From contig NC_010794.1 of assembly GCF_000019665.1 (NCBI RefSeq), positions 1,302,001-1,366,000 of the forward strand: DNA of 64,000 nt. The letters run 5' to 3'. The stretch is from Methylacidiphilum infernorum V4. GTDB lineage: Bacteria > Verrucomicrobiota > Verrucomicrobiia > Methylacidiphilales > Methylacidiphilaceae. A model generated the notes under the pieces. The model saw only the letters and a list, made by a program, of their open reading frames with translations. It had not been told where the DNA came from and did no database searches. Of the stretch, positions 6,674 through 14,345 are shown in pieces. The translations under genes were made by a program, and so were the position numbers. Each line of letters begins with the position of its first letter. The stretch's first letter is position 1.

Positions 6674-7834
6674 CTATTGGCTAGAAGACGACGGCTTTTC
6701 TTTGCCATGAATTTCTTTGATTATCTTTCCAAGGGAATCAAAGTTGTAGCCGGGTAGCATGGTCAATTCTTCTTTAAAATCTCCGGATTGGAGAAAATCG
6801 AGGAATTTTTCAACCGGGGGATATAAAGTTAAATCCTTAGGAACCACCAAGCAAAATTCCATCAGATAAAGAGGAATAAAATCCAAGCCTAGGAATTCTG
6901 CACAAGCCCTTGAAGTCAAAGCAACGTCGGCAAAACCATAGGAAACGGCTCGAGCCACTTCAAATGAAGAAGGCAGTTCCACCGTATAACCGTTTAGCTG
7001 ATGAGGAGATATATCCGCTTCCGAAAGGAGATGGTCAAAGAGTATGCGAGAACCCGATCCATGATCCCTGTTCACAAAACGAACCTCTTTGCGGAGAAGA
7101 TCTTCAATTTTATAAATTTTTAAGGGATTTGCTGGCTGCACAGCAAAACCTTCTTCCCACTGGCTGAAAGAAAGGATAAACCCTCCCGTTCCCATTAATG
7201 CTTCAGTACCGCTCTCAACATTGTTCTTCGGGTATTCCTTGGGAAAATGGAATCCGCCTATATGGGCAAAACCGGATTTCATAAACTCTAGAGCCTTCAG
7301 GCTCGACTGCCTAACCCACCAGAGCTTGAAATCCGAATATCGAGATAGGCGGCTCGAAAGTAAGCCTAAGGCAGGATCGCACCCGAGCAAAAAAACCTGT
7401 TTTTCCATTTCAGAATAGGGAAAAAGAAGCCTTAATTGCCTGTTATTATTGACAAGAGAAGGGAGGCGTAAAGCATTTGCTTCGAAAAAGCCCAAGGAGG
7501 TCTCAAGGGAGGTAGACGGCCACGCGATTTTCCGGCCCCTGACCTCTCCCACTACGTACCTAGTGGATATTTTCTGATTTTCATCAACCAGGACATCCGC
7601 TTCGATAAAATCGGGGCTATAGGGAAAAAGAAACTCCACAGTTTTTTCCAAAACCCTGGCCAACCTCAATGCAACGGCCGTATTGGGAACGTAAAGTCCA
7701 TTTTCCATCGCGTGAATAGTCTGCCTACTTACTCCTATTTTTGCAGCCAGTTCTTTTTGAGACAAGCCCTTGCCAATCCTCGCCAATCGGAGAGGACTAC
7801 TCAAGGTATTGTTCAAGAATAATTTTTTGGGCAT
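6674..7834 (-). CDS. One-component regulator: XRE-type HTH plus periplasmic-binding-like sensor domain
   Basis: Residues ~14-68 form an XRE/Cro helix-turn-helix (LSQKELAAKIGVSRQTIHAMENGLYVPN). The remaining ~270 residues resemble the PBP-like domain (COG1910/PF12727) related to molybdate/tungstate-binding proteins: LLGCDPALGLLSSRL, HIGGFHFP, RFVNRDHGSGSRILFDHLL and YGFADVALTSRACAEFLGLDF. No signal peptide is visible, so the sensor domain should act in the cytoplasm and bind a small ligand to control DNA binding. Relatives sit near molybdate transport or molybdopterin genes; none is here. It starts only 12 bases after the ftsZ stop on the same strand, so it could be the last gene of the dcw transcript. 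Confidence 0.85.
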   Translation of the reverse strand: MPKKLFLNNTLSSPLRLARIGKGLSQKELAAKIGVSRQTIHAMENGLYVPNTAVALRLARVLEKTVEFLFPYSPDFIEADVLVDENQKISTRYVVGEVRGRKIAWPSTSLETSLGFFEANALRLPSLVNNNRQLRLLFPYSEMEKQVFLLGCDPALGLLSSRLSRYSDFKLWWVRQSSLKALEFMKSGFAHIGGFHFPKEYPKNNVESGTEALMGTGGFILSFSQWEEGFAVQPANPLKIYKIEDLLRKEVRFVNRDHGSGSRILFDHLLSEADISPHQLNGYTVELPSSFEVARAVSYGFADVALTSRACAEFLGLDFIPLYLMEFCLVVPKDLTLYPPVEKFLDFLQSGDFKEELTMLPGYNFDSLGKIIKEIHGKEKPSSSSQ

Positions 7835-7846
7835 GGATTCAAGCCA

Positions 7847-8971
7847 TCAAATTTTTATAGAAATACCCTTTCTTAAAAATGTGGGCAGATCTAAGTTTTC
7901 CCCTTTATGGATCGTTTTATAGCTTTTTTCAAAAATTCCCGCTGGAAGTTCCTCCTCTTGAATTTTCTTTTCATCAACACCTTCAAAAGACCGGGCATTT
8001 TCTTTTTGGATATTTTCAAAATGATCAAGGTTTTCTTCTGTTTCTTCTCTAAAATAGCCGCTTAATCTAGAACTTCCTACAGCTACAAATCCCGTTTCCT
8101 TGCTTTTTTCTTCTCCTTCAACCAGGGAAACATAAAATTGCTTAAATAAGTTCTTCCCCCTTATTTTCATATCCGCTTTATCAACCTGTTTTCCGGACGG
8201 CGGCAGAAAAAAACAAGCCCATGCCGTTTTTTGATCCAGGGCAGGATCTTGGGCTGATTGGATAAAGGGCTGTATAGAGCTGAAAAGATCTTCTGTGTGC
8301 AGGGAAAAAGTATAAAAATCTTCAATATAAAGAAAGTCGGGAAAACTTTCTCTATCAAAGGAATCTTGCTTGGTTTCTTGAACGAGATTGTACCAACAAG
8401 AAATAGCAGAACCTACCTTTTTATTAAAATTCCTGTAAAGTCGGCGCCGGTCGTCTTCCGGTCCAAATACATTCTGTGCTCTATCATTGGAAAATAATAT
8501 CAATCTCAGATCCGTTTCCTGCAGGGACTGAAGAGTATCCCTCGTTATTTTCTGCCGCAACAATGTTTCTGAAATAAAAGGAAGAAAACCTATACAACTC
8601 ATGATCACCTTTTTTTGCTGAGCCTTCTTGGAAAAAAAACTTAATCCCGCACTTCCCATCCCTCCTCCAAGGCCGCATAAAACAAGCAGATGATCACAAT
8701 TGTCCAAAATCTGCTCGATGAGCTCCGCTTCATCCTCCAGGATAACTTTCGCAAAATCGACGTCCCCTTTAGATCCCTCTCCTTTTGCCCTCGTTTTTCC
8801 AAGGAGAACCCTGTAGTCAGCCAGACTTCCCTCTACACAGCAGTAATCAGAGTCCAGAGCATAAAAAAGACCCCTTTTTTCTTCGGTCAGTATCCATTCA
8901 TCAAGGAGATTTATTCCTGCCCCTCCTATCCCAACGATAACGGTCTTCAACAATACCCTCCCTTCCTTCAT
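7847..8971 (-). CDS. ftsZ: Highly divergent cell-division GTPase FtsZ
   Basis: Position directly after ftsQ-ftsA and the sequence itself support FtsZ. The N-terminal nucleotide loop reads VGIGGAGINLLDEW; the tubulin-signature loop is GLGGGMGSAG (~100-109) instead of the usual GGGTGTG. GFLPF and LILFSND match the T5/T6 regions. The extreme C-terminus, NLDLPTFLRKG, matches the conserved peptide by which FtsZ binds FtsA (E. coli LDIPAFLRK). The T7 catalytic loop (usual NVDFADV) is not recognisable; the equivalent stretch reads SFPDFLYIEDF. GTP hydrolysis may therefore be altered (inference). The ATG at 8971 is used here. A TTG at 8950 has a better Shine-Dalgarno site (GGGAGG, 6 bases upstream) and would remove 7 residues. 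Confidence 0.85.
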   Translation of the reverse strand: MKEGRVLLKTVIVGIGGAGINLLDEWILTEEKRGLFYALDSDYCCVEGSLADYRVLLGKTRAKGEGSKGDVDFAKVILEDEAELIEQILDNCDHLLVLCGLGGGMGSAGLSFFSKKAQQKKVIMSCIGFLPFISETLLRQKITRDTLQSLQETDLRLILFSNDRAQNVFGPEDDRRRLYRNFNKKVGSAISCWYNLVQETKQDSFDRESFPDFLYIEDFYTFSLHTEDLFSSIQPFIQSAQDPALDQKTAWACFFLPPSGKQVDKADMKIRGKNLFKQFYVSLVEGEEKSKETGFVAVGSSRLSGYFREETEENLDHFENIQKENARSFEGVDEKKIQEEELPAGIFEKSYKTIHKGENLDLPTFLRKGISIKI

Positions 8972-8996: not shown

Positions 8997-10235
8997 TTAA
9001 TTCAAAAATTTAATATTTCCTAGAATTTTCATTAATGAAGTTCTCATCTTATCCAAAGGACCTGCTTTTATATTTTCGAGTTCAAATACCCGGGCATACC
9101 TCAGTAAGCCAAGAACGGTATAAAGGTCTGGTCGCTGCACGTAGGATTGGTCTCCCTCAAAATGAAGGGGGTCTGCAATCTTCACGGGGTGACCAAAGAT
9201 CTCTTGCGCCAGCTCCACTATCCCCTCGATCATGCTTCCTCCACCCGTAAGATAGATATCTCCAGTAAAATGGGGCCAAAAAGATTGACTTTCCAAATCT
9301 TCCTTAATAATTTCGAATATTTCCCCCTGTCGAGCCTTCAATATTTTTACTATGGTATTATAAGGCACCAGTTTTTCTTCAGAAAGGGATTGGCCGCTTA
9401 AAGCAACCCTTTTTTTTAAATATTCTTTATCGGAACGATAGGATCCAAAATGTCTCTTTATCTCTTCAGCTTGGGGAAACGGTATTCTTAAAGCTAAGGC
9501 TAAATCGTTGGTCAAATGATCCTGTCCCACCCCTATAACCCCTGAATGCACAATAAGTCCCCTGTGATATACGATGTAATCCGAAAGGCCGGCTCCCAGA
9601 TCAATAACGATGGCTCCCCGTTTCTTTTGATCACGTGTCAACACAGCTAGGGCCGTAGCAAAAATGCTCAAGCAATAATGGCGTACGTCTATAGAAAGCT
9701 CCTTTACACATCGAATGGTTGTTTGCAGCCGTGTAGCTATCCCAGAAATTAAATGGTATTCTGCAGCCAACTTTTTTGAAAAAAGCCCTACCGGGTTTTC
9801 TGTTGCCGTTCCATCATCTAGATAATAAGTTTTCAATAAATCGTGCAAAAGAACCTGCCCTGAGGGTAAAGTTTGATACCGAACAAGATCACGAAGCTCG
9901 TTCAAATGCTTTTGATCTATCCGATCCCCCTCCTCTCCAAGGCCAATTACCACTTTAGAATTAAACGAACGAATGTGGGCTCCACTGACGGCTAGGTACA
10001 CTTCTTTGATTTCAACATTAGTTTTTGACTCCGCTTCCAGGAGCGCATCCTGGATCGATTTTTGAGCCAATTCGAAATCAACGATTTCTCCTTTTCTTAC
10101 ATGCAAGGAAGGAGCTTCAGCAATCCCTAGAAGATAAAGTTCACCCTCTTTTTTCAGCTCCGCCACCGAACAAGCTATTTTACTGGTTCCAATTTCCAAA
10201 CCGACAAGAATCGGCCACTCTTTTTTCCAAAACAT
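8997..10235 (-). CDS. ftsA: Cell-division protein FtsA (actin-like membrane tether for FtsZ)
   Basis: A 412-residue actin-fold ATPase that anchors FtsZ to the inner membrane. Phosphate-1 loop: VGLEIGTSKIACSVAEL near residue 11. The 1C subdomain follows (KEVYLAVSGAHIRSFNSKVVIGL). Phosphate-2: GAIVIDLGAGLSDYIVY (~210). Adenosine motif: DIYLTGGGSMIEGIVELA. The last ~16 residues (KMRTSLMKILGNIKFL) form a short basic amphipathic helix typical of the FtsA membrane-targeting sequence. It sits between ftsQ (20-base gap) and ftsZ (25-base gap), the canonical order. Unlike its FtsZ partner it is not notably degenerate. Confidence 0.95.
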   Translation of the reverse strand: MFWKKEWPILVGLEIGTSKIACSVAELKKEGELYLLGIAEAPSLHVRKGEIVDFELAQKSIQDALLEAESKTNVEIKEVYLAVSGAHIRSFNSKVVIGLGEEGDRIDQKHLNELRDLVRYQTLPSGQVLLHDLLKTYYLDDGTATENPVGLFSKKLAAEYHLISGIATRLQTTIRCVKELSIDVRHYCLSIFATALAVLTRDQKKRGAIVIDLGAGLSDYIVYHRGLIVHSGVIGVGQDHLTNDLALALRIPFPQAEEIKRHFGSYRSDKEYLKKRVALSGQSLSEEKLVPYNTIVKILKARQGEIFEIIKEDLESQSFWPHFTGDIYLTGGGSMIEGIVELAQEIFGHPVKIADPLHFEGDQSYVQRPDLYTVLGLLRYARVFELENIKAGPLDKMRTSLMKILGNIKFLN

Positions 10236-10255: not shown

Positions 10256-11125
10256 TTATTGAAAGATCACAGGCACATTCTGATCAGGCGTTAAATCAAC
10301 CATAGAGATCTTTCGCCCATGACTCTGAGAAAAGGAATAAATCTTTTGAAGTCTATTCAGCTGATCCATCAAATGGTCGATCCGAAATGTCAATCTTACC
10401 CCGTCCCGTGTTATTAACCCGATTGTAAATGGTCTTGAAACATCAATGATCTGCGGTTCAAAAGTAAAGTGAAGTGGAGAGTTCCCTAAAATATGAAGAA
10501 GATTAATCGCCGCGGAAACCTCCGGTTCTTCAATCCTTTTTTTCGTTTCTACGGCTTTTAAAGGTATTCCTACCATTTCGGGCAAGGAAAGAATATCCTC
10601 CCTGTTTGCCGTTAAAAAAGGATATCCTTTTTCATCAAGACAATATTTTTGATTGGGTTTTGATTTCATTGCAAGTTTGACAACGGGTTTCCTTTCCCAA
10701 ACTCGAATGAGAATACGATCGGGAAGTTGTCTGCGGATGATAGCCTTATCCACCTCTTGAATAGAGCATATATTCAAAAAAATGTCTTTTAAAGAAATGT
10801 CAAAAATGTTATCTCCCAGCCGTATTTTCGAGGTCTGTATGATTTCTTCCTTGGCAATTCGTCCCGTTCCAATGATCTCTACATCTATCTTTTTAAGCGC
10901 ATAACCGGAACGAACCAAAAGTTTGCTTTTGATATATGACCAAGCTTGAATCCCGCCAACAGCCATTACCCCCATAAGAATCATAAACAACACGGATCGC
11001 AACAAAATCCTGATCTTATTTTTTCTTCGTGAATCTGTTTTTAAAGCTTCAGCATCTAAAACTTCCATTCTGGGCTTTTTAAGCCGGTTCTTTTTTTTCC
11101 TTTTTCCCTTTTTGATCAAGTTCAT
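10256..11125 (-). CDS. ftsQ: Cell-division protein FtsQ/DivIB
   Basis: A bitopic membrane protein of the divisome. A Lys/Arg-rich cytoplasmic tail (~40 residues) precedes one membrane segment (ILLRSVLFMILMGVMAVGGI). A POTRA domain follows (LKKIDVEIIGTGRIAKEEI, then the conserved RRQLPDRILIRVWERKPV), and then the FtsQ beta domain. The start is set at ATG 11125, because AGGGAG lies 8 bases upstream. A longer frame begins at 11170 and would overlap ddl by 19 bases, but it lacks a good ribosome site. FtsQ links FtsL/FtsB-type proteins to the cell-wall synthases FtsW and FtsI, which are encoded upstream in the same cluster. Confidence 0.9.
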   Translation of the reverse strand: MNLIKKGKRKKKNRLKKPRMEVLDAEALKTDSRRKNKIRILLRSVLFMILMGVMAVGGIQAWSYIKSKLLVRSGYALKKIDVEIIGTGRIAKEEIIQTSKIRLGDNIFDISLKDIFLNICSIQEVDKAIIRRQLPDRILIRVWERKPVVKLAMKSKPNQKYCLDEKGYPFLTANREDILSLPEMVGIPLKAVETKKRIEEPEVSAAINLLHILGNSPLHFTFEPQIIDVSRPFTIGLITRDGVRLTFRIDHLMDQLNRLQKIYSFSQSHGRKISMVDLTPDQNVPVIFQ

Positions 11126-11151
11126 CTTTTTTTCTCCCTGTAAATTATCGC

Positions 11152-12063
11152 TTATCCATGGGCTTTCCACCTAAGGTAAGAAATCTCCAGGATTTTTTCG
11201 CAAAGTTGGGCAAAATTCATGCCGGAAGCTTTTGCTGCCATCGGGAATAAGCTTGTTTCGGTCATTCCCGGTATCGTATTGATTTCTAGAACCCAAGGAA
11301 TGCCATTATCAGAGAGGATAATGTCTACTCTTCCATATACAGAGCACCCAAGCACATTGAATGCATCAAGAGCCGTTTTCTGTACCGCCGATGTTTGATC
11401 TACGGTTAAGGGAGCGGGGCAAAAATAGGTTGATGCTCCCTTGGTATACTTATGGTGATAGTCATAAAACCCCTCTTTTGGTTTAATTTCAACAACGGGA
11501 AGGGCTTTTCCATCCAGAATCCCCACGGTTAATTCTTTACCCGTTATCAGCGCTTCAGCCAAGACCACATGGTCGTATTGGGTCGATTTTTTAATGGCTT
11601 GATCCAGCTCTTTAATATCATAAACGAACTCAATGCCTATGCTCGAACCTTGCCGCGAGGGCTTGATCACGTAAGGGGGATCAAAAGGGATTTTTTTTCC
11701 ATCTCCAACGACACAAAAAGGAGGAGTAGGGATACCTCCCTTGATGAAAAGGGTTTTGCTCCAAGCTTTATCAAAAGCTTTTTCGCTCGAGGAAGCATCA
11801 CTTCCCGTAAAAGGAATGCCTCGACGCATTAAAAGCCTCTGTATTTGTCCATCTTCTCCAAATGAGCCATGGATGCATAAAAAGCAGATTTCCGCATCCC
11901 TAGGGATTTCGAACTTTTCAGTTGTCACGTCAATGGAACTGATTTCGTAGCCGAGAGAAGAAAGAGCATCTTCAACGGCCTTTGCGGTTCGAAGAGATAT
12001 TTCCCTTTCTTCTGAAGGTCCTCCTTTTAAAACAGCAATGTGCCTGGGCAAAGCGGGATTCAT
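11152..12063 (-). CDS. ddl: D-alanine--D-alanine ligase
   Basis: An ATP-grasp enzyme of 303 residues that makes the D-Ala-D-Ala dipeptide used by MurF. Visible motifs are the N-terminal KGGPSEEREISLRTAKAV, the glycine-rich ATP loop region KPSRQGSSIGIEFV, and the C-terminal metal/substrate site WVLEINTIPGMTETSLFP. Its start overlaps the murC-murB stop by 4 bases (ATGA). AGGAGA lies just upstream, so translation is probably coupled. The length is normal for the short DdlB type. Confidence 0.96.
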   Translation of the reverse strand: MNPALPRHIAVLKGGPSEEREISLRTAKAVEDALSSLGYEISSIDVTTEKFEIPRDAEICFLCIHGSFGEDGQIQRLLMRRGIPFTGSDASSSEKAFDKAWSKTLFIKGGIPTPPFCVVGDGKKIPFDPPYVIKPSRQGSSIGIEFVYDIKELDQAIKKSTQYDHVVLAEALITGKELTVGILDGKALPVVEIKPKEGFYDYHHKYTKGASTYFCPAPLTVDQTSAVQKTALDAFNVLGCSVYGRVDIILSDNGIPWVLEINTIPGMTETSLFPMAAKASGMNFAQLCEKILEISYLRWKAHG

Positions 12064-14345
12064 CTTTCTTCTCCTAAAATCACCACCTCTGTTTCCAAAT
12101 TTATTCCTCTTTTTTCAAGCGCCACCTTTTGGATCAAAGCAATAAGCTCTAGAATATCTTTAGCCCTAGCCCCTCCATCGTTGACGATAAAATTGCCATG
12201 CTCTTCAGAAACGCGCGCTTTACCTATAGAAACATTTTTCAATCCCAGCTCCTCTATCAATTTTCCAGCCGGAATTTCTTTTGGATTTTTAAAAATACAC
12301 CCCGCACTGGATCCGGCGGGTTGCGTTTCTACGCGTTTTGAAGAAAATTCTTTTAACTGCCTTGCAATGAGCTCCCTGTCCATCGGTGTAGCGATGAGCT
12401 GCGCTGAGAGAGCGATATGGGTTTCAAAAAAAGGGACTTTTCGATAATAAACCTCAAGATTCTCTCGATCAATTTCTCCCCTGTTCCCCTTCAGGTCCAT
12501 AAATCTTACCCGTTTTACCACATCCATGATCGCCCCTCCCATAGCTCCCGCATTCATTCTTAATGCTCCACCTAAACTTCCGGGAATTCCTTCAAGAAAT
12601 GAAAGTCCGCCAAGCCCCTGTTTTTTCGCCTCGTAGACTATTGTCCTCAACTTGGCCCCACTGCCCGCATAGATTGAATTACCGCTAAAATGAATACTAC
12701 AGAAATGGGGATGACCTAGGTGAATGCAAAGTCCTTTTATACCCCCATCGCGCACAAGAAGATTCGTCCCCCTCCCAATCAAAACCACAGGGAGATGATT
12801 TTCAGCGGCAAAACACAAAAGGGTTGAAAGATCCTCTTCTGTTGCCGGTTCTGCCCATATTTCAGCAGGTCCGCCAACCCTCAAAGTCGTATGCCTGCTT
12901 AATGGCTCATTCATCAACAGCTTCGTCTCGGCCGATACCTTTGTCTTGAGTTCTTCAATCATATGCAGATACCTCGCTAATTTTTCCGCCGTTTTATAAA
13001 TATCTCCAGCCCCCAGGGATATAATGGTATCTCCGGGTTGAATAATCGATAGCGTTCTGGAAGCTAGCCGGTCCAGATCTTTTTCAAAAAGAACCGCCGG
13101 ATGTCCCTGTTCCTTTATTTCTTTTGCTAAAGACCATCCATCAATTCCATTTGAGGGTTCTCCAGCCCCAAATATTTCCGTTACAACCACGACATCGGCA
13201 TCATGGAATGCATGGGCAAAAAGGGGTTTCATCGTTTTTATACGACTATACCGATGAGGCTGAAATAGGGCTACCGTCCTTTTCCCTCTGCCTTTTGCCG
13301 ATCTCAACGTGGCTTTTATTTCCGTTGGATGATGGGCATAGTCGTCTATGACCTCGTAATCTTTCCCTTTATATTTCAACTCAAAGCGTCTTTTTAATCC
13401 AAGAAAGCGAGAGAGGCTACTCGACGCAGAAAGGGGAGAAATGCCGATTGAAGTTGCCATTGACAAAGCAGCAAGGGCGTTTTGAACGTTTTGCATGCCT
13501 GGGATTTGAAGCTTTATGTTACATAACCTGTTTTGTTCTCTATACACCGGGTATCCCTGTGAGGCGCCTTGAGAATCAATCCAAAAATCCGGTCCTCTTT
13601 CTTTTAAACTATAGCCAAAGGCTTTTTTATCTGCTCGATAAAGGAGTGTTCTACAGTGAGGATCATCTTGATTAAAAATGACTATATCTTGGGTTCGGGC
13701 GATCATTTCTTTAAAAGCCAAAAGGATAGCATCGATATCCGAATAATAATTGAGATGCTCTTCTTCGATATTCAAAACAACGAGATATTGGGGTGAAAAA
13801 TAAAGGAAACTGCCGTCGCTCTCATCCCCTTCGATAACCATGTATTCACCCCGTCCTAAGTAGGCGCTCCCTCCAGGAGTAAGAGTCTCTGCCCCCACGT
13901 AAAATGAAGGATCCAAACCACAATCTTTTAAAATCCATGCGATCATTCCCGATGTCGTACTTTTACCATGCATCCCCGTCACAAGAATGACTTTTTTGTC
14001 TAAAGCAAGAAGGGATAGAAGAAAAGCCCGCTTGACAAGGGGTATCCCCCGTTGCACGCACGCTCTATATTCGGGATTGTCCAAGGGAATAGCCGAAGAA
14101 AAGCAAACCAAGTCCGTTGAAAGGACATGCCTATGATCGTGATAAGGGTAAAAGTCCATACCCAATTCTATCAATCTCTGCACTTTTTCCGTCGGCTCAC
14201 AGTCTGAACCACTGACGTGATAACCAACTGAAAGCAGTAAATTAGCCAGGGGAGTCATCCCGCTCCCACAGACTCCCAATAAATGAATTTTCGATTCCTT
14301 GTTTTTCAAAATGTTTAAGATTACTTCCTTCTCTTGAAAAGACAT
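12060..14345 (-). CDS. murC/murB: Bifunctional UDP-MurNAc--L-alanine ligase / UDP-MurNAc dehydrogenase (MurC-MurB fusion)
   Basis: One 761-residue chain holds two consecutive cytoplasmic peptidoglycan enzymes. Residues ~17-455 are MurC: HLLGVCGSGMTPLANLL, the ATP loop VTGMHGKSTTSGMIAW, IEGDESDGSF, and the Mur-ligase central and C-terminal domains (VIDDYAHHPTEI, FQPHRYSRIK). Residues ~465-761 are MurB, a FAD-binding reductase: RHTTLRVGGPAEIW, VLIGRGTNLLVRDGG, FLEGIPGSLGGALRMNAGA, YYRKVPFF and AGCIFKNP. MurB (reduction to UDP-MurNAc) acts just before MurC, so the fusion joins successive steps. Both sets of active-site motifs look complete. The frame is unbroken across the junction near residue 460, so this is a true fusion. 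It overlaps murG by 25 bases. Confidence 0.95.
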   Translation of the reverse strand: MSFQEKEVILNILKNKESKIHLLGVCGSGMTPLANLLLSVGYHVSGSDCEPTEKVQRLIELGMDFYPYHDHRHVLSTDLVCFSSAIPLDNPEYRACVQRGIPLVKRAFLLSLLALDKKVILVTGMHGKSTTSGMIAWILKDCGLDPSFYVGAETLTPGGSAYLGRGEYMVIEGDESDGSFLYFSPQYLVVLNIEEEHLNYYSDIDAILLAFKEMIARTQDIVIFNQDDPHCRTLLYRADKKAFGYSLKERGPDFWIDSQGASQGYPVYREQNRLCNIKLQIPGMQNVQNALAALSMATSIGISPLSASSSLSRFLGLKRRFELKYKGKDYEVIDDYAHHPTEIKATLRSAKGRGKRTVALFQPHRYSRIKTMKPLFAHAFHDADVVVVTEIFGAGEPSNGIDGWSLAKEIKEQGHPAVLFEKDLDRLASRTLSIIQPGDTIISLGAGDIYKTAEKLARYLHMIEELKTKVSAETKLLMNEPLSRHTTLRVGGPAEIWAEPATEEDLSTLLCFAAENHLPVVLIGRGTNLLVRDGGIKGLCIHLGHPHFCSIHFSGNSIYAGSGAKLRTIVYEAKKQGLGGLSFLEGIPGSLGGALRMNAGAMGGAIMDVVKRVRFMDLKGNRGEIDRENLEVYYRKVPFFETHIALSAQLIATPMDRELIARQLKEFSSKRVETQPAGSSAGCIFKNPKEIPAGKLIEELGLKNVSIGKARVSEEHGNFIVNDGGARAKDILELIALIQKVALEKRGINLETEVVILGEER

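Follow-up and report, generated by a model that had tools for sequence, protein, structure and literature searches.

A sole and highly divergent FtsZ in Methylacidiphilum infernorum, with an altered T7 loop, in a phylum where one T7 acid is usually missing

Introduction

The gene that follows ftsA in Methylacidiphilum infernorum V4, a hot-acid methane-eater, raises the question of whether its product is the only FtsZ of the cell and, if so, what has become of its GTP chemistry. The two aspartates of the FtsZ T7 loop are regarded as conserved and required. In S. aureus FtsZ the attacking water is positioned by D210 (E. coli D209), and assembly is lost when any one of three T7 positions is substituted (D210N, D213N or N208L; PMC8936486). 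Hou et al. 2008 stated, with data not shown, that ftsZ but not ftsA is fast-evolving in M. infernorum (PMC2474590), and Rivas-Marin et al. flagged its FtsZ as detected only by an alternative query (PMC5147048). A sequence-only reading of the locus left two explanations standing: a sole FtsZ with unusual GTP chemistry, or a second, degenerate homologue beside another FtsZ. Here, we examine the gene within a window of 64,000 nucleotides (bases 1302001-1366000 of the genome, the whole stretch of DNA analysed), and compare it across the family, the order and the phylum.

Results

The locus and its single FtsZ

The divergent ftsZ (7847..8971, minus strand) is an open reading frame running from 8971 to 7850, with its stop at 7849-7847, and encodes 374 amino acids from the ATG at 8971. 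Relatives start at the codon matching residue 7, where M. infernorum has TTG at 8953 with the Shine-Dalgarno-like GGAAGGGAGGG just upstream; for these reasons the TTG is probably the true start rather than the ATG. The other cluster genes lie on the same strand: ftsA (8997..10235; TIGR01174 300 bits, cut-off 176), ftsQ (10256..11170; Pfam and gene order), ddl (11152..12063; named from its sequence and cluster position) and a murC-murB fusion (12060..14345; gene order), a fusion already reported in Verrucomicrobiota (PMC12283558). The order murCB-ddl-ftsQ-ftsA-ftsZ recurs in those relatives of M. infernorum whose loci are sufficiently complete, and the gene thus occupies the position expected of ftsZ, as first proposed. 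We also note, downstream of ftsZ and on the same strand, a regulator gene that joins an XRE-type HTH to a PBP-like domain (6674-7834).

The product matches the tubulin/FtsZ GTPase domain PF00091 at 70 bits (Pfam cut-off 33). With TIGR00065 it scores 78 bits, below the curated equivalog cut-off of 295, which is also missed by 131 of 145 genomes of the phylum and is therefore a poor cut-off for Verrucomicrobiota. FtsZ_C gives no HMM match, and an S7-S10 arrangement is seen, at moderate confidence, in the AlphaFold2 model; PF13809 (Tubulin_2) is absent from the Pfam domains of the protein. These scores agree with its description as a very divergent FtsZ.

A genome search for a second ftsZ, the check suggested by the sequence-only reading, found one PF00091 gene above threshold in the closed single-contig genome (2,287,145 bases), namely the divergent ftsZ itself. 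All 13 family genomes have at most one such gene, so that no second FtsZ was found by PF00091 in M. infernorum or its family. The thirteenth genome (G007) has no match, and its FtsZ is cut by the end of a contig; we considered loss of ftsZ there and dropped it, as a gene at a contig edge is no evidence of loss.

The nucleotide pocket

Most of the pocket formed by the subunit itself is recognisable in the alignment. The T1 loop GIGGAG (residues 14-19, 8915..8932) is kept, as are the T2 Asp and N162 of T6 (SND; 8486..8488), the equivalent of E. coli N165 and kept throughout Methylacidiphilum. Core helix H7 (residues 175-198, 8378..8449; model and alignment) carries N183 at the position of E. coli N186, the guanine-contact Asn. 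R139 (8555..8557), equivalent to E. coli R142 and S. aureus R143, whose role is described in PMC8936486, is retained as well. The T4 loop (residues 102-109, 8645..8668) does not match the FtsZ signature GGGTG[ST]G: it reads GGGMGSAG rather than GGGTGTG, just as the sequence-only reading had it. The Met falls at the position of E. coli Thr108 and is found in all six Methylacidiphilum sequences, with Thr in 30 of 31 controls (taken from two loci recorded under the names of other phyla, and from genomes belonging to the same phylum as one of these loci).

In the sister genus Methylacidimicrobium (L136, L137, L138 and L008-L013), T4 reads GLAGATGAT, the T6 Asn is lost and the guanine-contact Asn is replaced by Gln or His, so that the nucleotide pocket looks eroded. 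Judged from these replacements, that genus may be drifting away from the use of GTP.

The T7 loop and helix H8

The T7 loop ETKQDSFD (residues 199-206, 8354..8377) lacks the NxDxxD motif in every alignment made. A gapless count from N183 (E. coli N186) to E. coli D209 arrives at D206, which is invariant in the six Methylacidiphilum sequences. This best register places S204 (S/P in the genus) at E. coli N207 and S209 (S/N/G) at E. coli D212. HHalign against the control profile supports it; with the order profile, HHalign favours a different register that lays FPD212 on FAD and takes D206 off the catalytic position; residue 212 varies between D, E and S within Methylacidiphilum. On the alignments we infer the register with D206 at D209. 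Either register leaves at most one T7 acid, and an ordinary T7 loop with both acids was found neither by alignment nor in the predicted structure. The claim that the loop cannot be recognised holds for the missing motif and is overstated for D206. A conserved IED was also considered as the catalytic acid and dropped, because it is part of strand S7 and its counterpart in the alignment is the ENCW motif of the order.

Helix H8 appears to be replaced by RESFPD (residues 207-212, 8336..8353; model and alignment). The AlphaFold2 model, built with 44 sequences, has a mean pLDDT of 80 and a pTM of 0.79; pLDDT exceeds 90 over most of the N-terminal domain, is 53-82 in the T7 and C-terminal parts and 61 in block 201-210. 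It aligns with B. subtilis FtsZ 2vxy by VIA-align with Z 27.6 over 290 residues (rmsd 3.1, 16% identity). In the model, H7 (175-198) passes through a short loop directly into S7 (213-223) without H8, and residues 213-300 (8072..8335), the region lacking an FtsZ_C HMM match, are predicted to form a C-terminal domain ordered S7-H9-S8-H10-S9-S10. A control model with the relative L141 as query and the same sequences has a helix in the place of H8 at 225-232 (block pLDDT 88-96), unlike that of M. infernorum. The models thus point to an FtsZ fold from which H8 has been lost.

The C-terminal tail

Following a fast-evolving linker delimited by alignment and model (residues 301-340, 7952..8071), the alignment shows a conserved tail (residues 343-374, 7850..7945) that ends in GIFEKSYKTIHKGENLDLPTFLRKGISIKI and bears the order-wide GENLDLPTFLRK. 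Its columns F347, T353, G357, L360, D361, P363 and R367 are invariant in 25 sequences of the order and reach at least 90% each in 44 sequences. The tail includes LDLPTFLRK (residues 360-368, 7868-7894), a peptide of the FtsA-binding type that is predicted to bind FtsA; it had been described as the end of the protein, and it lies near the end, with GISIKI following. The ftsA product carries at its C-terminus the stretch MRTSLMKILGNIKFLN, which resembles an amphipathic membrane helix. We further note that FtsZ C-termini of the order (window 7850-7961) have a second motif, QEEL followed by GRFEK..T, upstream of LDxPTF, which is possibly a second binding site.

Evolutionary rate

With 80 taxa in each of two matched sets, FtsZ has a mean path of 3.58 between Methylacidiphilum and Methylacidimicrobium and FtsA one of 0.85; among the other taxa the values are 2.49 and 2.01, respectively. 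Identity to Methylacidimicrobium is 56-59% for FtsA and 23-24% for FtsZ. With the nearest species, dN/dS is about 0.23 for ftsZ and 0.03 for ftsA; across Methylacidiphilum and Methylacidimicrobium, ftsZ gives 0.23-0.34, with dS saturated for several of the more distant pairs. Methylacidiphilum FtsZ is far faster-evolving than FtsA, yet under purifying selection. The fast evolution of ftsZ was itself already known, and our figures quantify that statement (PMC2474590).

T7 acids across Verrucomicrobiota

Loss of a T7 acid extends well beyond M. infernorum, a point missed by the sequence-only reading. Both acids are kept in 29 of 31 controls and in 22 of 162 distinct verrucomicrobial FtsZ sequences, a set that leaves out the two divergent genera, Methylacidiphilum and Methylacidimicrobium, mixes genomes with named records, includes a few doubtful record titles and may contain near-duplicates from one genome. 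The remaining 140 lack the complete pair (only D212 in 87, only D209 in 50, neither in 3), and since the 162 sequences are related, their losses are not independent events; the FtsA tree needs at least nine changes of T7 state. A dependence between losing one acid and keeping the other was considered and dropped, as the FtsA tree offers only four independent contrasts, too few for such a comparison. D209 is replaced by G, S, H or T, and D212 by T, A or R. Some sequences with G209 have an acid at 211 (GFDDL) that might stand in for D209. Our literature search found no description of T7 erosion in Verrucomicrobiota, and the tally across the phylum is new here. The ftsZ gene of V. spinosum is reported as essential (PMC12283558).

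Most relatives have SFADV or HLADL at T7; Methylacidiphilum has neither. Relatives within Methylacidiphilales such as L141 resemble M. infernorum in gene order and in the tail motif GRFEK..T...G.NLD.PTF, and already miss one T7 acid. The alignments suggest that a one-acid T7 is the rule in the Verrucomicrobiota examined, with M. infernorum as the extreme case.

Discussion

M. infernorum FtsZ shares with canonical FtsZ (E. coli, B. subtilis and S. aureus) the fold, the position after ftsA, the tail peptide and the guanine-side residues, and differs in the T4 Thr-to-Met change, the lost NxDxxD, the missing H8 and an FtsZ_C domain undetectable by HMM. That it is a single copy in a shared gene order, keeps the tail, evolves quickly under constraint, carries the T4 change and lacks NxDxxD was established by computation. 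The fold and the missing H8 come from the model, and nucleotide binding, polymerisation, FtsA binding and the hydrolysis phenotype are inferred.

We think it probable that the protein is an orthologous FtsZ and the only one in the cell, a GTP-binding, FtsA-tethered and filament-forming protein whose hydrolysis is altered or slow. The PF00091 search bears out the sole copy, and the unusual GTP chemistry proposed from sequence is favoured as an interpretation. The protein would bind guanine nucleotide, form filaments and be tethered to the membrane via FtsA, as FtsZ is elsewhere. Its own pocket half of the active site would be largely retained apart from the T4 change, while the other half, T7 and H8, which an adjoining subunit contributes, would have been rebuilt, with D206 kept at the catalytic position and the second acid, the Asn and H8 gone. 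Such rebuilding would make GTP hydrolysis in the filament probably slow or single-acid, and filament turnover may be less dependent on it. This reading is weakest in its T7 register and its mechanism: model confidence is low at T7, and the order-profile register displaces D206. Moreover, two of the three T7 positions essential for assembly in S. aureus are non-standard in M. infernorum; as the S. aureus mutants lose assembly, by analogy the polymerisation of this FtsZ might not follow the known mode.

A pseudo-GTPase, that is, a nucleotide-stabilised or nucleotide-independent scaffold on FtsA with no turnover driven by hydrolysis, is a less likely reading. The loss of the N207 and D212 equivalents and of H8, together with the genus-wide Met in T4, would fit it, as would the missing T6 and guanine-contact Asn residues of Methylacidimicrobium, but if GTP were not used at all, it would be difficult to account for the retention of T1, R139, N162, N183 and the invariant D206. 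Fast evolution and motif loss could instead mark a decaying ftsZ heading for loss, with division becoming FtsZ-independent as in Planctomycetes and Chlamydiae, and the lineage is reported to have lost Min and FtsEX genes (PMC2474590). We regard such decay as improbable: ftsZ is intact in five of five genus genomes searched and across the family bar the one contig-edge case, dN/dS in both genera indicates constraint, and the tail is still conserved.

That the gene encodes a second, degenerate homologue carried by FtsA, with another FtsZ-like protein dividing the cell, is very unlikely indeed, and we reject this half of the sequence-only reading. The candidate for the other protein is an FtsZl1-type Tubulin_2 gene (G000:C1:1393090-1394112, outside the window), the only PF13809 match of the genome and noted in M. 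infernorum by Makarova and Koonin (PMC2875224). Its product, like M. infernorum FtsZ, belongs to the tubulin superfamily and is encoded in the same genome, but it is of another family and lies at another locus. The gene is found in 11 of 13 family genomes. The closest relative (G008) and G012 both lack it and retain the divergent FtsZ, so it cannot serve the whole family as division protein. The 2010 authors also judged a direct role of FtsZl1 in division unlikely (PMC2875224), and the divergent ftsZ is the one PF00091 gene present.

Mutation of either T7 aspartate costs S. aureus FtsZ its assembly (PMC8936486), in contrast with the Verrucomicrobiota, most of which, among those examined, lack one. 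It is conceivable, though we hold it only tentatively, that most Verrucomicrobiota use filaments with only one T7 acid for division and that turnover in Methylacidiphilaceae is largely uncoupled from GTP hydrolysis. A mostly one-acid phylum, ending in a sole FtsZ that appears to lack H8, offers natural variants for testing whether division needs treadmilling driven by hydrolysis.
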